From: Eubacteriales bacterium
GTDB taxonomy: Bacteria > Bacillota > Clostridia > Lachnospirales > Lachnospiraceae
NCBI GenBank assembly: GCA_030524225.1
Contig: JAUNGV010000009.1
Location: 1-63,791, forward strand
DNA length: 63,791 nt
Reading direction: 5' to 3'
The notes beneath the pieces were generated by a model that had not been told where the DNA came from, searched no databases, and saw only the letters and a program-made list of their open reading frames with translations. The translations under genes and the position numbers were made by a program. Every line of letters starts with the position of its first letter. The first letter of the stretch is position 1. Positions 11,466 through 61,617 of this stretch are shown piece by piece.

Positions 11466-11561
11466 CATACAACCTGGCGGAGCCGGGTTGCAGCGAAGCA
11501 GAATTCATCAGGCTATAGGCCGGGTTGTATTACATCAGGCTGTAACAATATTTTTATGCTA

Positions 11562-11593
11562 GGGGCGGGCAAGGGCATTGCCCGTCCCTTTTT
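11562..11593 (+). terminator. Intra-operon terminator between binding protein and permeases
   Basis: GGGGCGGGCAA (11562-11572) pairs with TTGCCCGTCCC (11578-11588) and is followed by TTTTT. Placed inside the operon, it should make most transcripts end after the binding-protein gene. This fits the usual excess of binding protein over permease. The spacer before it also holds two ACAACC/GGTTGT-type repeats (11469-11530). Confidence 0.8.
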
Positions 11594-11634
11594 CACAATC
11601 GGAGCACACAGAACGCTTCGACATGGAGGAAGCT

Positions 11635-12486
11635 ATGCAAAAAGCGATCAAGAAATACTGGCCCGTTTTTTTACTGCCGACTCTGGTTGCGTTCGCAATC
11701 GGATTTATCTGGCCTTTTCTGTGGGGACTCTTTCTCTCCCTGTGTAAATTTACGACGATTTCCAAAATAGAGTTCGTGGGATTTGCCAATTATACCAAGA
11801 TCTGGGCAGATGCGACGTTTACCCACGCTTTTCTGTTTACCGCACTGTTTACGGTAGTCTCCACGGTGACGATCAATGTGCTCGGCTTTGCCGTCGCGCT
11901 TCTGCTCACCCGTGGTGTCAAGGGAACGAATATTTTCCGGACGATCTTCTTTATGCCGAACCTGATCGGCGGTATCGTGCTCGGTTATATCTGGCAGATT
12001 CTGTTAAACGGCCTGCTGACCAAGTGGGGCCTGCCGCTTCTGGCTCTCGATGAGAAGTACGGATTCTGGGGCCTGCTGATTCTGATGAGCTGGCAGCAGA
12101 TCGGCTATATGATGATTATTTATATTGCGGGCCTGCAGAACGTCTCGCCGGATCTGATCGAGGCGGCCCAGATTGACGGAGCGACCTCCCGACAGGTGCT
12201 CTTTAAGATCAAGGTTCCGATGGTGATGCCGAGCATCACGATCTGTACGTTCCTGACGCTGACCAATTCCTTTAAGCTGTTTGACCAGAACCTGTCCCTG
12301 ACGGGCGGCGAACCGGCGAAGCAGTCCCAGATGCTCGCGCTCAATATTTACGACACGTTCTACGGCAGAAGCGGGGCACAGTGGAAGGGCATCGGACAGG
12401 CCAAAGCAGTTGTGTTCTGTCTGCTGGTGGTGGTGATCGCGATGATCCAGCTGCGGCTGACGAGATCAAAGGAGGTACAGGCGTGA
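11635..12486 (+). CDS. Sugar ABC transporter permease (MalF/UgpA type)
   Basis: This 283-residue integral membrane protein has about six helices and the cytoplasmic EAA loop EAAQIDGATSRQVLFKIKVP, which docks the ATPase. The ATG at 11635 is preferred because GGAGG lies 5-6 bases upstream; upstream ATGs add 4 to 19 residues. No ATPase gene is in this operon, so a shared MsmK-type ATPase encoded elsewhere probably energises it, as in many Firmicutes sugar importers. The ribosome site sits in a small CTTC-gacat-GGAG hairpin with an alternative upstream partner (GGAGC at 11601-11605), part of a motif family seen at other starts here. Confidence 0.88.
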   Translation: MQKAIKKYWPVFLLPTLVAFAIGFIWPFLWGLFLSLCKFTTISKIEFVGFANYTKIWADATFTHAFLFTALFTVVSTVTINVLGFAVALLLTRGVKGTNIFRTIFFMPNLIGGIVLGYIWQILLNGLLTKWGLPLLALDEKYGFWGLLILMSWQQIGYMMIIYIAGLQNVSPDLIEAAQIDGATSRQVLFKIKVPMVMPSITICTFLTLTNSFKLFDQNLSLTGGEPAKQSQMLALNIYDTFYGRSGAQWKGIGQAKAVVFCLLVVVIAMIQLRLTRSKEVQA

Positions 12487-18918: not shown

Positions 18919-18977
18919 CAGAGTTCCGGGATAAGTGCTCCGGCACAGCTTCCGGGAAACTGACAAAGGAGGAGAGA

Positions 18978-19011
18978 CGCAGCGGGGCGTGAAGGTTCCG
19001 CTGCGCTTTTT
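18978..19011 (+). terminator. Terminator or attenuator upstream of the uracil permease
   Basis: CGCAGCGG (18978-18985) pairs with CCGCTGCG (18998-19005), followed by CTTTTTT. It closes the preceding transcript, or could attenuate the permease if transcription reads through. I could not identify the PyrR-binding consensus. Confidence 0.75.
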
Positions 19012-19028
19012 CGGGATTTGAGCAGAAA

Positions 19029-19058
19029 GAAGCGCCGAGGGGGCGCTTCGGAATGGAG
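19029..19058 (+). promoter_or_regulatory. Three-segment Shine-Dalgarno hairpin before the uracil permease
   Basis: GAAGCGCC (19029-19036) can pair with GGCGCTTC (19042-19049). The end of that second arm, CTTC, can instead pair with the Shine-Dalgarno GGAG (19055-19058) across the 5-base loop GGAAT. The two hairpins exclude each other. The same arrangement recurs at several starts in this window. Confidence 0.5.
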
Positions 19059-19064
19059 AGGACA

Positions 19065-20441
19065 ATGGGGAGAGAGAAGATTAAGATCGGAGAACATCCT
19101 ATCTACGACGCGACGGCGCTCGGCGCGCCGAAAATGCTGGTTCTGGGAATCCAGCATATGTTCGCGATGTTCGGGGCAACCGTGCTGGTGCCTGTTCTGA
19201 CGGGGCTGAGCGTCTCGACGACGCTGCTGTTCGCGGGACTCGGAACACTGCTGTTTCATCTGATTTCCAAGAAGAAGGTGCCGGCGTTTCTGGGGTCCTC
19301 CTTCGCTTTTCTGGCGGGCTACGCGGCGATCGCGCCGAACGGGGAGGCGGAACTGCTCCCGTATGCCTGCTTTGGCGTCGCGGTGGCAGGAATGATTTAT
19401 CTGATTCTGGCGGGACTGTTCAAGGCTTTCGGCGCCAATAAGGTCATGCGCTATTTCCCGCCGGTGGTGACCGGCCCGATCATCATCGCGATCGGTCTGA
19501 ATCTGTCGCAGTCGGCGATCGACAACTGCGCGACCCACTGGTGGGTGGCTCTCGTGGCGATTGCGATCATTGTGATCTGCAATATCTGGGGCAAGGGAAT
19601 GATCAAGATCATTCCGATCATCATGGGCGTGGTCGGCTCGTACATCGCGGCGGCCATCGCGGGGCTGATCGACTTCACACCGGTGGCGGAGGCGGCGTGG
19701 ATTGGTCTTCCGATTGACTACAGCCGGACGGTATTCGCGATCTTCACGGGCGGCAATCTCGATCCATCTCTTCTGATCACGTCGGTGATCACGATCGCAC
19801 CCATCGCGTTTGCGACGATGATGGAGCATATCGGCGATATCTCCGCGATCTCCTCGACGGTCGGCAAGAACTTTATCAAGGATCCCGGACTGCACCGGAC
19901 GCTGACCGGCGACGGGCTGGCAACGACAATGGCCTCTCTCTTCGGCGCACCGGCCAACACGACGTATGGAGAGAACACGGGTGTGCTGACGCTGACGAAA
20001 GTGTTCGATCCGAAGGTGATCCGGCTGGCGGCCTGCTTTGCCGTGATCCTCTCCTTCTGCCCGAAGTTCGCGGCGATTATCGAGGTGATGCCTGCGGCGA
20101 CGATGGGCGGCATCTCCCTCGTGCTCTACGGCATGATTTCGGCGGTCGGCGTGCGCAACGTCGTTGAGACAAAGGTGGACTTCAGCAAGAGCCGCAACGT
20201 GATCATCGCCGCGCTGATTTTGGTGCTCTCGATCGGCATCAATTATTCGGCGGCGGGGAGCGTCGGCTTCTCGATCGGCAGCGTGACGCTGAGTTTCTCC
20301 GGTCTGGCGGTCGGCTCTTTTGTGGGAATCGTGCTGAACGCGATTCTGCCGGGCAAGGATTACAAGTTTGAGAACGAGACGCCGAATGAGACCGGCGTTG
20401 ATTTTGAAATTGTGCAGGGCAGGACGCTTTCGGAGAAATAA
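19065..20441 (+). CDS. uraA: Uracil permease (NCS2/nucleobase-cation symporter family)
   Basis: This protein of about 458 residues has 12-14 membrane segments. It opens with the UraA/PyrP-type sequence LGIQHMFAMFGATVLVPVLTGL, followed by VPAFLGSSFAFLAGY. The core signature region is MMEHIGDISAISSTVGKNF and DGLATTMASLFGAPANTTYGENTGVL, with the substrate-contacting Glu/His. The uracil rather than xanthine assignment rests on these N-terminal motifs. The ATG at 19065 is preferred over one 4 codons earlier because of the GGAGAGG spacing. It is a single gene. Confidence 0.9.
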   Translation: MGREKIKIGEHPIYDATALGAPKMLVLGIQHMFAMFGATVLVPVLTGLSVSTTLLFAGLGTLLFHLISKKKVPAFLGSSFAFLAGYAAIAPNGEAELLPYACFGVAVAGMIYLILAGLFKAFGANKVMRYFPPVVTGPIIIAIGLNLSQSAIDNCATHWWVALVAIAIIVICNIWGKGMIKIIPIIMGVVGSYIAAAIAGLIDFTPVAEAAWIGLPIDYSRTVFAIFTGGNLDPSLLITSVITIAPIAFATMMEHIGDISAISSTVGKNFIKDPGLHRTLTGDGLATTMASLFGAPANTTYGENTGVLTLTKVFDPKVIRLAACFAVILSFCPKFAAIIEVMPAATMGGISLVLYGMISAVGVRNVVETKVDFSKSRNVIIAALILVLSIGINYSAAGSVGFSIGSVTLSFSGLAVGSFVGIVLNAILPGKDYKFENETPNETGVDFEIVQGRTLSEK

Positions 20442-41746: not shown

Positions 41747-41895
41747 CAGTTCAGCCAGCCGGAGGCAGGAGGGGTAAAATCGTGCTTACATGAATTTGTG
41801 CCGCTTGCTTCCGGCTGAGGACGCGCCAGTTCATGAGCAAAGACAGCCGCGAAGCGGCGGAGAGCGGCGGCAGCGTAGCTCCATCGAATGGCGCG
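41747..41895. repeat. Dispersed repeat, copy 2, within a three-way-junction fold
   Basis: The core 41822-41895 matches the repeat at 2619-2690. Here the surroundings complete a fold. The outer stem is TTCAGCC with GGCTGAA. Hairpin one is AGCCGGAGGCAG with CTTGCTTCCGGCT. Hairpin two is CGCGCCA with TGGCGCG, enclosing CCGC-GAA-GCGG. The roughly 150-base unit could be a structured RNA or a miniature mobile element; no reading frame in it looks real. Between it and the next element lies AT-rich DNA (41896-42000). Confidence 0.6.
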
Positions 41896-42055
41896 GGCTG
41901 AATTATTACCTTTGTGGGAATGTTTTATAATTAGGTACCTTGACAATAAGAGGGTAACGTGGTATTCTTTCAAATATCAAGGCACCTAAATATAAAATAA
42001 AACATGGATTTTATCCATGTTATCGAGTGGAGTGCTACGAGTCTCGGCAGTGGTA

Positions 42056-42160
42056 GACACAGATTTGAACTTTGTGTCGGAGTGCCGCAAAGTTCGTTGA
42101 TAGCAGACATAAATTTGAGATTTGTGTCGCTCTGTCGCGCAAAAGCGCTCCGGAAAGGAG
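42056..42160 (+). ncRNA. Pseudoknotted leader RNA element, copy A
   Basis: The stem GAACTTTGTG (42067-42076) pairs with CGCAAAGTTC (42086-42095) around a 9-base loop. After the 10-base linker GTTGATAGCA comes the stem GACATAAAT/ATTTGTGTC (42106-42114 with 42120-42128). Loop bases CGGAG (42078-42082) can then pair with CTCTG (42130-42134) as a pseudoknot. A GCGC-AAAA-GCGC hairpin and a CTCC/GGAG hairpin with the ribosome site end the element 6 bases before the MarR start. An alternative hairpin GACACA/TGTGTC (42056-42061 with 42073-42078) competes with the first stem. A perfect hairpin AACATGGAT/ATCCATGTT lies just upstream (42001-42021). Confidence 0.65.
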
Positions 42161-42166
42161 AACAGG

Positions 42167-42871
42167 ATGAATAGAGAAATAAGTCGGAAACAGGAATGGA
42201 ATACGGAGAGAGAGGGGATTTTCATGGAAAATAATGGCAGGGACGCTACGGAGATCACGCACTGCAATCAATGTCCGAATCACTGCCCGCTGACATCGCC
42301 GCGCTGTGGAAAGGGGCGGCGGTATGCGGAGAGTCTGAAACAGGCGCAGGAACCGGTGAGGGAAGAGCTGTTTGACTTCCCGCGCTGGCAGAAGAAACGC
42401 GGAGAGCGGATTGGACGCAGAGAAGGCGGTCGTGGAGAACATGGCGGCTGGGAGAAGCGGGACGACCTGACCAGTCTGCTGCGGCGGTGTGGTCATATCC
42501 TTCATCACCGGCAGGGCGGCGGCCGGGGAGGACAGAACGGGATTCTCAGGATTCTCGCGGAGCGGGGAGAGATGTCCCAGCGGGAACTGCAGGAAATCCT
42601 GCGGATTCAGCCGGGGTCGATGAGTGAGATTCTGGCCAAGCTGGAGAGAAAGGGATTTTTGATCCGCCAGAGGGAGGAAGAGGACAGGAGAAAGAGTCTG
42701 CTCCGGATTACGGAGGCAGGACGCGCCGAAGCGGACGCCCGGACAGAAGAGGGGGCAGAGGAGGACAGGCTTTATGATTGTCTTTCCGGGGAAGAGAAGG
42801 AGGTTCTGCGTGCACTGCTGAAGAAAGTACTGCAGAGCTGGGAGGAACCGGAACGGCAGGAACAGGAGTAG
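42167..42871 (+). CDS. MarR family regulator with N-terminal cysteine cluster
   Basis: This 234-residue protein has an N-terminal CNQCPNHCPLTSPRCGKG segment (about residues 28-45), a Cx2Cx3Cx6C arrangement suited to a metal or Fe-S cluster. A Gly/Arg-rich linker follows, then a MarR winged helix: NGILRILAERGEMSQRELQEIL, then QPGSMSEILAKLERKGFLIRQREEEDRRK. Sensing of redox state or metal is a reasonable inference. No transporter gene follows; the next gene converges. The ATG at 42167 has AAAGGAG 7 bases upstream, inside the structured RNA element. Confidence 0.82.
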   Translation: MNREISRKQEWNTEREGIFMENNGRDATEITHCNQCPNHCPLTSPRCGKGRRYAESLKQAQEPVREELFDFPRWQKKRGERIGRREGGRGEHGGWEKRDDLTSLLRRCGHILHHRQGGGRGGQNGILRILAERGEMSQRELQEILRIQPGSMSEILAKLERKGFLIRQREEEDRRKSLLRITEAGRAEADARTEEGAEEDRLYDCLSGEEKEVLRALLKKVLQSWEEPERQEQE

Positions 42872-49658: not shown

Positions 49659-49672
49659 GTATAGAAAGCCCG

Positions 49673-49944
49673 GACGGCGGGCGAACCACGGGCGCGCCTG
49701 CGCGCACCGGGGATCGCGCATCGGCCGGGCAGAACACATGAGCAGGGAGGGCGCAGCCCGGAGTGCGAATGTGTTCTGCGATTTCAAAGGAGCCGAAGGC
49801 GAGTTTGAAATCAGGCTTTCGTAAGACGCGGGAGCCCAAAGGAGACGGCGGGCGAACCACGGGCGCGCCTGCGCGCACCGGGGATCGCACATCGGCCGGG
49901 CAGAACACATGAGCAGGGAGGGCGCAGCCCGGAGTGCGAATGTG
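49673..49944. repeat. 101-bp direct repeat between rpsO and pnp
   Basis: Two copies, 49673-49773 and 49844-49944, differ at a single base. The 70-base spacer contains a perfect inverted repeat, GATTTCAAA with TTTGAAATC, enclosing GGAGCCGAAGGCGAG. The copies are very GC-rich and free of any believable gene. The near identity points to recent duplication or a mobile element with a terminal direct repeat. It sits in the 5' region of the pnp mRNA. Confidence 0.9.
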
Positions 49945-50000
49945 CTCAGGAAGAGACGAGTGACGAAAGAGAAGAAGCAAGAGAAGAAAAGGAGAGAGAC

Positions 50001-53754: not shown

Positions 53755-53843
53755 GAGTCCGGGATTTGTGCCGGAGCAACATCAATCACAACGCAGAATC
53801 AAAGATTCTGCTGCAGAGGGCGGAAATTTCCGGAATGGAGAGT

Positions 53844-53933
53844 ATGCGTACAAAGAGAGCGGCTGCGTGGAAGCAGCCGCTCTTGCGTTTCCTTGGTGGG
53901 ACTATGCAAACCGGATCTAATTTGCTAAAATGA
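53844..53933 (+). other. Possible 29-residue basic small protein over a hairpin
   Basis: ATG at 53844 follows TTCCGGAATGGAG, the same ribosome-site hairpin seen at other starts here. It opens MRTKRAAAWKQPLLRFLGG and ends TMQTGSNLLK. The frame contains an 11-bp perfect hairpin (53856-53866 with 53873-53883) that resembles a terminator without a T-run. Either a small protein or merely a terminator is possible. The remaining sequence to 54088 holds an extended -10 (TGCTAAAAT at 53923-53931) that may be the promoter of the next operon. Confidence 0.3.
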
Positions 53934-56577: not shown

Positions 56578-56848
56578 ATGACAGAAGAATCGCCCGATGG
56601 CGCTTTTCTGTCATTCGAACCGGCAGGAACCGCCGCCGGTTCGGTGATTGCAGATCAGAAACCGCCTGCGCGGATTTCTGATCGCAGTGCCGCAGCAAAG
56701 CTGCGGCAGGGAGGTAAGATTGAACAATAAGCTTGATAGCTTATTGTTTAATCCTGAGCTTTGTGTCGGGGCGTCACAAAGCTCGAGAATGGCAGACGCA
56801 AATTGGACATTTGCGTCGCCCCGTCGCGAGAGACGCTCCGGAATGGAG
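56578..56848 (+). ncRNA. Multi-hairpin leader between xseB and ispA, ending in RNA element copy B
   Basis: Successive hairpins fill the gap: 56578-56586/56606-56614; 56616-56624/56635-56643; 56653-56665/56670-56683; TGCCGCAGC/GCTGCGGCA (56688-56708); AACAATAAGC/GCTTATTGTT (56723-56748). Element copy B follows: GAGCTTTGTG/CACAAAGCTC (56756-56784) with loop TCGGGGCGT, the 10-base linker GAGAATGGCA and GACGCAAAT/ATTTGCGTC (56795-56817). Loop bases GGGGCG (56768-56773) can pair with CGCCCC (56817-56822). A final CTCC/GGAG hairpin (56836-56848) holds the ispA ribosome site. No gene is encoded in this stretch. Confidence 0.7.
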
Positions 56849-56854
56849 AAAGTT

Positions 56855-57757
56855 ATGAATTTCGAGGAAGAACTGCGGAAAAAGACGGAGGACTGCGAAC
56901 GGGTCATCCTGAATTTCCTGCCCTGTGCGGAGGGATATGCCTCCCGGGTCGTGGAAGCGATGCACTACAGCGTGGAGGCGGGCGGCAAGCGTCTGCGCCC
57001 GCTGTTTCTCTTTGAGACGTGCCGGATGTACGGCGGACCGATGACGCTGGCGGAGCCGTTTATGGCTGCGCTGGAGATGATTCATACGTATTCCCTCGTT
57101 CACGACGATCTTCCGTCCATGGACAATGACGAGTACCGGCGGGGACGCCGGACGACGCATGTCGTCTATGGCGAGGGAATGGCGGTTCTGGCGGGTGACG
57201 CCCTGCTCAATTATGCGTATGAGACGGCGATCGGCGCGCTGTTCGTGGCGCAGTCGGAGCAGGAGAGGGCGCGGGTGGCGCGCGCGCTCCGCGTGCTGGC
57301 GGGAAACGCCGGGATCTACGGCATGGTGGGCGGTCAGTGCGCGGATCTGGAAGCGGAGGGCAGAGGCGGTGCGGCTGACGCGCAGACGCTCCTCTATATC
57401 CATAAGCACAAGACGGCCTGCATGATCGAGAGCGGCTTCAGGATCGGAGCGATTCTGGCGGGAGCGCCCCAGGAGGATGAGGAGAAACTGGGGAAAATCG
57501 CGGAGCATATCGGTATTGCATTCCAGATCCAGGACGATATCCTCGACATTGAGGGAGACAGTCAGACGCTGGGCAAGGCGACGGGACAGGACGAGCGGGA
57601 CGGCAAGTCCACGTATGTGACCGTACACGGCATGGAGAAGGCGAAAGAGGACGTCCGCGTGCGCACGCAGGAGGCGCTGGAGCTGCTGGACGGACTTTCG
57701 GTTGGAAATGAATTTCTGCGCGGGCTGATACAGAGGCTGATGACGCGGGAGAAGTAA
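56855..57757 (+). CDS. ispA: Farnesyl/geranyl diphosphate synthase
   Basis: This protein of about 300 residues is a short-chain polyprenyl synthase. It has AGGKRLRPLFLFETC, the first aspartate-rich motif SLVHDDLPSMDNDEYRRGR (DDxxxxD) and the second FQIQDDILDIEGDSQTLGK. It condenses isopentenyl and dimethylallyl diphosphates for undecaprenyl and other isoprenoids. The ATG at 56855 lies 6 bases after GGAG inside the structured leader. Neighbouring dxs supplies the precursor pathway. Confidence 0.94.
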   Translation: MNFEEELRKKTEDCERVILNFLPCAEGYASRVVEAMHYSVEAGGKRLRPLFLFETCRMYGGPMTLAEPFMAALEMIHTYSLVHDDLPSMDNDEYRRGRRTTHVVYGEGMAVLAGDALLNYAYETAIGALFVAQSEQERARVARALRVLAGNAGIYGMVGGQCADLEAEGRGGAADAQTLLYIHKHKTACMIESGFRIGAILAGAPQEDEEKLGKIAEHIGIAFQIQDDILDIEGDSQTLGKATGQDERDGKSTYVTVHGMEKAKEDVRVRTQEALELLDGLSVGNEFLRGLIQRLMTREK

Positions 57758-60629: not shown

Positions 60630-60750
60630 CAGAGCCGCAAACGCCTGCGCGCTTCTGACAGAGCGAGCGGTCGGGGAGCGCCGCGCAGGATGGAACAAAG
60701 CAGGGCAAAATGCAGCCGGGAACCGGGATGCAGAGAGCTTTGCAGCGTAG

Positions 60751-60778
60751 CCGGAGCACAGAGCGCTCCGGCGTGGAG
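60751..60778 (+). promoter_or_regulatory. Three-segment Shine-Dalgarno switch before nadK
   Basis: CCGGAGC (60751-60757) can pair with GCTCCGG (60765-60771). Alternatively CTCC (60766-60769) pairs with the Shine-Dalgarno GGAG (60775-60778) across loop GGCGT. The two structures exclude each other, and the start codon is 5 bases downstream. Confidence 0.55.
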
Positions 60779-60783
60779 AAGAG

Positions 60784-61617
60784 ATGGAACATTTTTGCAT
60801 CATCACAAATCAGGAGAAGGACCCGGCGTCGGAACTGACCGGGCAGGTGCGCGCCTTTCTGCAGGAGAGGGGGAAGGTGTGCGACTGCGCGGACGCGGCC
60901 AGCGGGATCAGGGAGAATACGGACTGTCTGCTCGTACTGGGCGGAGACGGGACGATGCTGCAGGCAGCCAGAGACAGCATTGACCGGCAGATTCCCATTC
61001 TGGGCATCAATCTGGGAACGCTGGGGTATCTGGCGGAGGTGGAGAAGCAGAACTGGAGAGAGGCGCTGGCCAATCTGCTCTCCGGCCGCTATGCGCTGGA
61101 AAAGAGGATGCTTCTGGAGGGACGTCTGACCTGCGGGGCGCAGGCCCGCGTCTGTGATACGACGCCGGAGTACGCGCTGAACGATATTGTCATCACCCGG
61201 GACGGATCGCTTCAGATTATCAACTACAATATTTACGTCAACGGCAAAGCGCTCAATACGTTTGAGGCGGACGGCATTATCGTCTCCACGCCGACGGGAT
61301 CCACCGCGTATAACCTCTCTGCGGGAGGACCGATTGTGGAGCCGAAGGCCAAGCTGATTCTGCTGACGCCGATCTGCCCGCACACCCTCAGCACGCGCAG
61401 TATTATCCTTGCGCCGGAGGATCGGATCACGATCGAGATCGGTCCCGGCAGGAGGCAGGAAGTACAGCGGGCGAAGGCGAGCTTCGACGGAGGTTTTGAT
61501 AAGCCGATGGAGACGGGAGACCGGATAGAAATCTGCCGCTCGGACCGGGAAGCCACCGTGATCAAGCTCTCGGAGCTGAGCTTTCTCGAGACGCTGCACA
61601 AGAAAATGGCGCATTGA
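60784..61617 (+). CDS. nadK: NAD kinase
   Basis: This 277-residue kinase phosphorylates NAD to NADP. It has CLLVLGGDGTMLQAARD (the GGDGT motif), ILGINLGTLGYLAEV, LNDIVITRDGSLQ and VSTPTGSTAYNLSAGGPIVE. GGAGAAGAG precedes the ATG. It lies in the normal order between tlyA and argR. Confidence 0.96.
   Translation: MEHFCIITNQEKDPASELTGQVRAFLQERGKVCDCADAASGIRENTDCLLVLGGDGTMLQAARDSIDRQIPILGINLGTLGYLAEVEKQNWREALANLLSGRYALEKRMLLEGRLTCGAQARVCDTTPEYALNDIVITRDGSLQIINYNIYVNGKALNTFEADGIIVSTPTGSTAYNLSAGGPIVEPKAKLILLTPICPHTLSTRSIILAPEDRITIEIGPGRRQEVQRAKASFDGGFDKPMETGDRIEICRSDREATVIKLSELSFLETLHKKMAH

Follow-up and report, generated by a model that had tools for sequence, protein, structure and literature searches.

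What occupies the space in front of an ispA-like gene in a Lachnospiraceae genome, and why does the same RNA fold recur in front of an unrelated gene? The window analysed here, a 63,791-nt stretch of contig JAUNGV010000009.1, had been predicted to carry two copies of a pseudoknotted element, copy B at 56756-56848 and copy A at 42067-42160, which might be either a dispersed regulatory RNA or a mobile repeat bearing a ribosome-binding site. The coordinates of both copies are correct. We think it probable that they belong to a non-autonomous mobile element, present in dozens of copies, that lands behind Shine-Dalgarno (SD) sites and supplies a replacement SD. This reading draws on the copy number, the fold, the covariation in the pseudoknot, the position of the element and an insertion polymorphism, all of which we observe.

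The extent first proposed for copy B was too short, since a hairpin at 56718-56753 (P1) also forms part of the element, which measures roughly 135-165 bp. Its general order is P1, with GAT in the loop; P2, of 11 bp with a 9-nt loop; P3, with an outer GGC/GCC, a bulged A and a 9-bp inner stem; a small P4; and a strand CGCUCCGG, after which come AAU, the SD GGAG and the start codon. Copy B lies directly behind an older relative, and the features around it and around copy A are as follows.

56615-56723, plus strand: older relative of the element, ending in the hairpin GCCGCAGCAAAGCTGCGGC and GGGAGG (model R2, 44.9 bits, E 1e-9)
56710-56714, plus strand: GGAGG, SD of the preceding older element, with copy B directly behind it
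56718-56753, plus strand: P1 hairpin, GATTGAACAATAAGC / GCTTATTGTTTAATC with GAT in the loop; the P1 pattern recurs in the genome
56755-56785, plus strand: P2 stem, with the 9-nt loop TCGGGGCGT at 56766-56774; both bases of the pair vary in 7 of its 11 pairs
56791-56820, plus strand: P3, with outer GGC/GCC, bulged A at 56794, inner GACGCAAAT/ATTTGCGTC and loop TGGAC
56822-56835, plus strand: P4, small hairpin CGTC/GACG, from the minimum-energy fold
56834-56841, plus strand: CGCTCCGG, pseudoknot strand for the P2 loop, whose CTCC could alternatively pair with the SD
56845-56848, plus strand: GGAG, the element's own SD
56855-57757, plus strand: polyprenyl synthetase gene (ispA-like), downstream of copy B (PF00348, E 8.9e-58)
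42066-42160, plus strand: copy A, with P2 at 42066-42096, P3 at 42102-42131, P4 at 42137-42148, the pseudoknot strand at 42146-42153 and the SD at 42157-42160
42167-42871, plus strand: gene for a MarR-family protein, behind copy A (PF01047, E 2.9e-14)

Ahead of copy A and overlapping it, at 42051-42079, part of its P3 arm is repeated, and this repeat could form an alternative hairpin with P2.

The stems of this fold are real, as the original prediction had it, but its pseudoknot partner was wrong, the element is longer and the copies are far more than two. P2 and P3 do form the pairs first proposed, with compensating changes between copies A and B. Both folding energy and covariation among host copies, each measured against shuffles, support a selected RNA fold. 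Copy B together with P1 (56714-56862) folds at -63.3 kcal/mol, compared with -37.1 kcal/mol in shuffles (z -7.4, 0/200). An alignment of 49 of the 88 host copies (A2), scored on a given structure that included the pseudoknot first proposed as one of five helices, holds 49 double-changed cells, compared with 16.5 in shuffles (0/500); in this alignment both bases of the pair vary in 7 of the 11 P2 pairs and in 4 of the 9 inner P3 pairs. The outer P3 stem is GGC/GCC in copy B, AGC/GCT in copy A and CGC/GCG in relatives; among relatives it occurs in GC and CG forms, and 82.9% of its cells are paired, against 70.5% in shuffles, with 35 double-changed cells against 17.7 (0/500 for each). The bulged base is an A in 166 of the 209 elements that could be parsed (out of 252), by a parser that favours paired outer stems and is to that extent biased toward this structure. 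P4 varies among copies, with 83.7% of its cells paired in the register counted. All of these shuffle tests disregard relatedness among the copies.

We find that the partner of the P2 loop is a strand other than the one first proposed. The earlier candidate, GCCCCG, overlaps the outer P3 stem and lacks covariation support: in the host genome 84.5% of its cells are paired, no better than in shuffles (291/500), with an A-C position that fails to pair in 36 of 45 cells, and in relatives 61.5% are paired, with one pair showing a double change compared with 3.7 in shuffles. Its run lengths lie at the permutation level in three sets. Counting against its rejection, only 9 of 500 shuffles attained the percentage observed in relatives, and only 4 of 500 the covariation score. 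The P2 loop instead pairs with CGCUCCGG, immediately 5' of the SD; in copy B this strand ends three bases upstream of the SD. In alignment A5, which comprises 88 distinct sequences, all from relatives and found with a model (R1) that was built from host copies and contains no pseudoknot, standard pairs fill 95.3% of cells, compared with 90.3% in shuffles (0/500), and there are 49 double-changed cells compared with 16.5 (0/500, relatedness ignored). Among the relatives 89 of 90 hits were parsed and 81 were left once 8 without a recognised SD were dropped; the longest Watson-Crick run between loop and strand is 6.89, compared with 5.22 when partners are swapped and a maximum of 5.90 in 1000 permutations. 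Compensated loop/strand combinations include CCGGAG/CUCCGG, CCGAAG/CUUCGG, UCGAAG/CUUCGA, CCUGAG/CUCAGG and ACGGAG/CUCCGU. The support comes from these relatives and not from the host genome, within which neither this pairing nor that with GCCCCG shows covariation above shuffles. The sequence comparisons show a conserved pseudoknot between the P2 loop and the CUYCGG strand.

Copy B is one of 88 places in the 2.92-Mb host genome, counted after removal of duplicates, that match a degenerate P3-arm pattern with at most three mismatches, whereas the reversed pattern has no match; the P1 pattern adds about a dozen places that lack the P3 arm, 12 of which were fetched. In the window itself, models R1 and R2 give four further matches.

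60695-60788, plus strand: probable diverged copy ending CGCTCCGGCGTGGAG (R2, 23.0 bits, E 3.7e-4)
53759-53850, plus strand: probable decayed copy ending TTCCGGAATGGAG (R1, 26.2 bits, E 7.8e-5)
18977-19068, plus strand: probable diverged copy ending GCGCTTCGGAATGGAG (R2, 21.2 bits, E 0.0011)
11560-11638, plus strand: possible remnant ending CGCTTCGACATGGAGG (R2, 18.7 bits, E 0.0047)

Model R1 finds the element in at least 21 of 48 other genomes of the genus and at least one of 31 other genomes of the order, and model R2 finds it in at least 7 of 195 other genomes in a sample of the order, from two families, and in none of 198 other genomes in a sample of the phylum; these counts are lower bounds, with 18-49 candidates scored per genome. 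One exact pattern occurs in at least 118 stretches of named genomes, and the 80 listed, mostly labelled Lachnospiraceae or its genera, were given to the model, which yielded 86 hits; 83 were used and three at contig ends were left out. Carriage by phages or plasmids was considered and rejected: a plasmid search gave no match, one exact pattern had 0 matches among viral contigs, and two unannotated phage records match at 72-74% identity.

The prediction of a dispersed element that brings a ribosome-binding site to unrelated genes, made from two copies, is borne out across the genome. An SD, a start codon and an ORF on the same strand follow the element in at least 77 of 87 host copies (the 88th, a tandem pre-unit of copy A, was left out of this count), and among the remaining ten some are decayed and some, by eye, still have an ATG behind the SD. 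Of 30 downstream proteins, 24 have a Pfam match, and their functions, which include a glycosidase, a histidine kinase, a sugar transporter, MarR and polyprenyl synthetase, have nothing in common, with only Radical_SAM appearing twice. The sense orientation and the placement at an SD, together with the conserved pseudoknot and the possibility of mutually exclusive pairing by the CUYC strand, are what would be expected of a dispersed cis-regulatory RNA, whether it resembles a riboswitch or binds a protein, whose copies mark out a regulon and have spread because the regulation is useful. We nevertheless consider this unlikely, as the coherent gene set expected of a riboswitch class was not found among the 30 proteins, the presence of the element within the genus is patchy, some copies are nested, and closely related genomes differ in whether a site is filled.

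At the other end of the element, 90 of 108 elements from five sets have an SD within the 12 nt that precede P1, compared with 14 and 24 in two control windows (7 of the 20 stretches fetched from genomes G101, G190 and G174 gave no P1 by script). In G101, where the 12 copies with a P1 look nearly alike, a left SD is present in 12 of 12, whereas each of two control windows has one in 1 of 12. These left SDs vary from copy to copy, the right-hand GGAATGGAGG is nearly constant, and another element precedes two of the 12, which are nested behind it. The left SD might alternatively serve a leader ORF whose first codon is the NTG of P1, in which case a translated leader would be coupled to the gene and the SD would not be a target. 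Of 92 elements for which a main start could be placed, 83 do have an NTG where P1 begins, and its frame is open to the main start in 35 of these 83, compared with 0 and 3 in the other frames (P1 was found by script in 95 of 252 elements, and 83 were used). By eye, however, the other frames close early owing to stops inside P1 itself, and the NTG frame stops in the linker in many elements. The right SD and not the left is conserved in G101, and the left SD is already there in an empty site (see below). We regard a coupled leader as the least probable of the alternatives, and quite improbable.

The possibility that the element is a mobile repeat is confirmed by filled and empty sites in two genomes, G021 and G035, that are 99.8-100% identical around two of the loci compared, and 95-97% identical at a third, where the contig ends. 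At the first site G021 has about 164 nt more than G035, placed exactly behind a GGGAG that is also present in the empty site; the flanks are 100% identical, and the base after the SD is A in G035 and G in G021. At the second, G021 has a 136-nt element within the 3' end of xseB, before ATGATG, where we saw no canonical SD. By eye, xseB runs into ispA without an element in at least 10 of 29 loci of the same genus; at their xseB-ispA locus G021 and G035 each carry element remains of their own.

The empty version of the first site in G035 is itself the end of an older element, which matches the inserted end at 14 of 16 bases, so that recombination is possible there. Spread by recombination among cassettes that end in an SD, in place of transposition, would also accommodate chimeric copies, such as L030 and L078, in which P2 arms and linkers are of different types. 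Yet 23 of 37 host copies tested are non-nested, with left flanks that by eye resemble the element only in the SD, as is also the case in G101, and the xseB insertion sits in coding sequence. We therefore find recombination as the general route improbable and favour insertion of a mobile element. Against this favoured reading stand the xseB insertion at no canonical SD and the absence of three enzyme families from the host genome, which is 81% complete: neither a Y1 transposase (IS200/IS605), nor an RVT_1 reverse transcriptase (as in group II intron-like or other retro-elements), nor a DEDD recombinase (IS110, bridge RNA) was found there.

We do not claim a classic target-site duplication: flank similarity suggestive of one is significant in the host genome, owing in part to nested copies, and is not general. 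The flank similarity test gave 0/3000 in the host genome and 9/3000 and 32/3000 in other sets, a stricter spacer test gave p values of 0.0006 in the host genome and 0.30 and 0.07 elsewhere, and most of the near-identical copies in G101 show no such duplication by eye. The SD overlaps a possible duplication at the first G021/G035 site. Nor did we see terminal inverted repeats by eye, when the start of P1 (GATTG/GTGTG) was compared with the complement of the CGGAATGGAG end. We also note that in two related genomes (L106, L107) 30- and 36-bp repeats with CCCCAGAGGTC vary in copy number inside apparent coding regions.

In the mechanism that we propose, the element would insert directly behind a gene's SD, between the SD and the start codon, and would bring a structured leader (P1-P4 and the pseudoknot) that ends in an SD of its own, so that the gene would stay translatable. 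When the pseudoknot is formed the CUYC strand would be held and the SD free; when it is open the strand could pair with the SD instead and so mask it. The RNA so inserted may reset how the host gene is translated, and could perhaps act as a switch. Pairing between the CUYC strand and the SD is possible in 91.9% of cells, compared with 91.5% in shuffles (135/500), and two of the five measures in the SD-hairpin test were reached by only 7/500 shuffles. Covariation gives no clear sign that the SD hairpin is maintained, and a switch is thus weakly supported. More tentatively, and short of an even chance in our estimation, the element could represent a new class, one whose members home to SD sites, are mobilised by a route that involves their own SD-like end and the pseudoknot strand, and place ordinary ribosome-binding sites under the control of a pseudoknot across many species of a single bacterial order. 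Should the reading as a mobile element that lands behind SDs be right, one such element would have rewritten the regions where translation starts in dozens of unrelated genes of these gut bacteria. It would offer structured ribosome-binding sites ready-made by nature, and new post-transcriptional control could arise by this route. This raises the question of what recognises the SD as an insertion target.

Several known systems invite comparison. Non-autonomous elements derived from IS200/IS605, and REP sequences, insert behind a short fixed sequence, have hairpins near both ends and end in a sequence that resembles the target; the present element is like them in its insertion point, end hairpins and target-like end, but its host lacks a Y1 enzyme in the 81% of the genome available. 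In the preQ1-II and SAM-II pseudoknot riboswitches a hairpin loop pairs with sequence adjoining the SD, as proposed here, although the present element has dozens of copies, no shared downstream function and no Rfam match. BOX elements of Streptococcus pneumoniae are likewise high in copy number and modular, with predicted RNA stem-loops and possible effects on downstream genes (PMC3049150); the part of that account available to us describes no terminal SD, pseudoknot or SD target, and the comparison is one of described features. The bacterial MITEs ERIC, RUP and YPAL are, like the present element, under 200 bp, non-coding and mobile, with RNA hairpins (PMC2229807). Our element is short, non-coding, dispersed and mobile; judged against the part of that source available to us, it differs in having no terminal inverted repeats (by eye), in not being A+T-rich (G+C 0.39-0.65) and in lying at SD sites. 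As far as these partial sources go, its nearest counterparts are BOX elements and other MITE-like repeats of bacteria, from which it differs in its position at the SD, its own SD and its pseudoknot.

In Rfam 15 no family reached its gathering score for the element in the window or at 10 further loci, nor did any when copies A and B were each searched at a relaxed threshold; the element may for this reason be overlooked in annotation. Its description was not recognised from titles and the starts of abstracts, in a literature search whose coverage mostly excludes subscription papers and preprints. Kinship with the Clostridiales-1 RNA (RF01699) was rejected, as copy B scores 12 bits against a gathering score of 48. 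A member of that family does lie in the same window as copy B, at 49660-49823 (69.2 bits), and is followed at 49845-49945 by a shorter near-repeat of its core, noticed by eye, that is absent from the Rfam matches.

Variants of the element were also seen. Upstream of copy A, at 41820-41915, lies a GC-rich module ATGAGCAAAG...GCGAATGGCGCGG, similar to one that takes the place of P3 in L094, and by eye this module resembles the UGAGCA...UGCGAAUG part of Clostridiales-1. At four other loci (L091, L092, L095 and L097), from the places found with the P1 pattern, an insert of roughly 100 nt that bears a hairpin like CTTCTTGAACGCAGTTCAAGAAG stands in place of P3, so that the element is modular. A subset of host copies (L009, L017, L026, L029 and others) has a linker hairpin, GCAAAATCAAAGATTTTGC, between P2 and P3. 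Lastly, a second subfamily has the hairpin GCCGCAGNNAAGCTGCGGC followed by GGAGG (L358-L369; 56689-56714 in the window); it occurs at 44 places in the host genome with at most three mismatches, sometimes as a bare hairpin-SD cassette.
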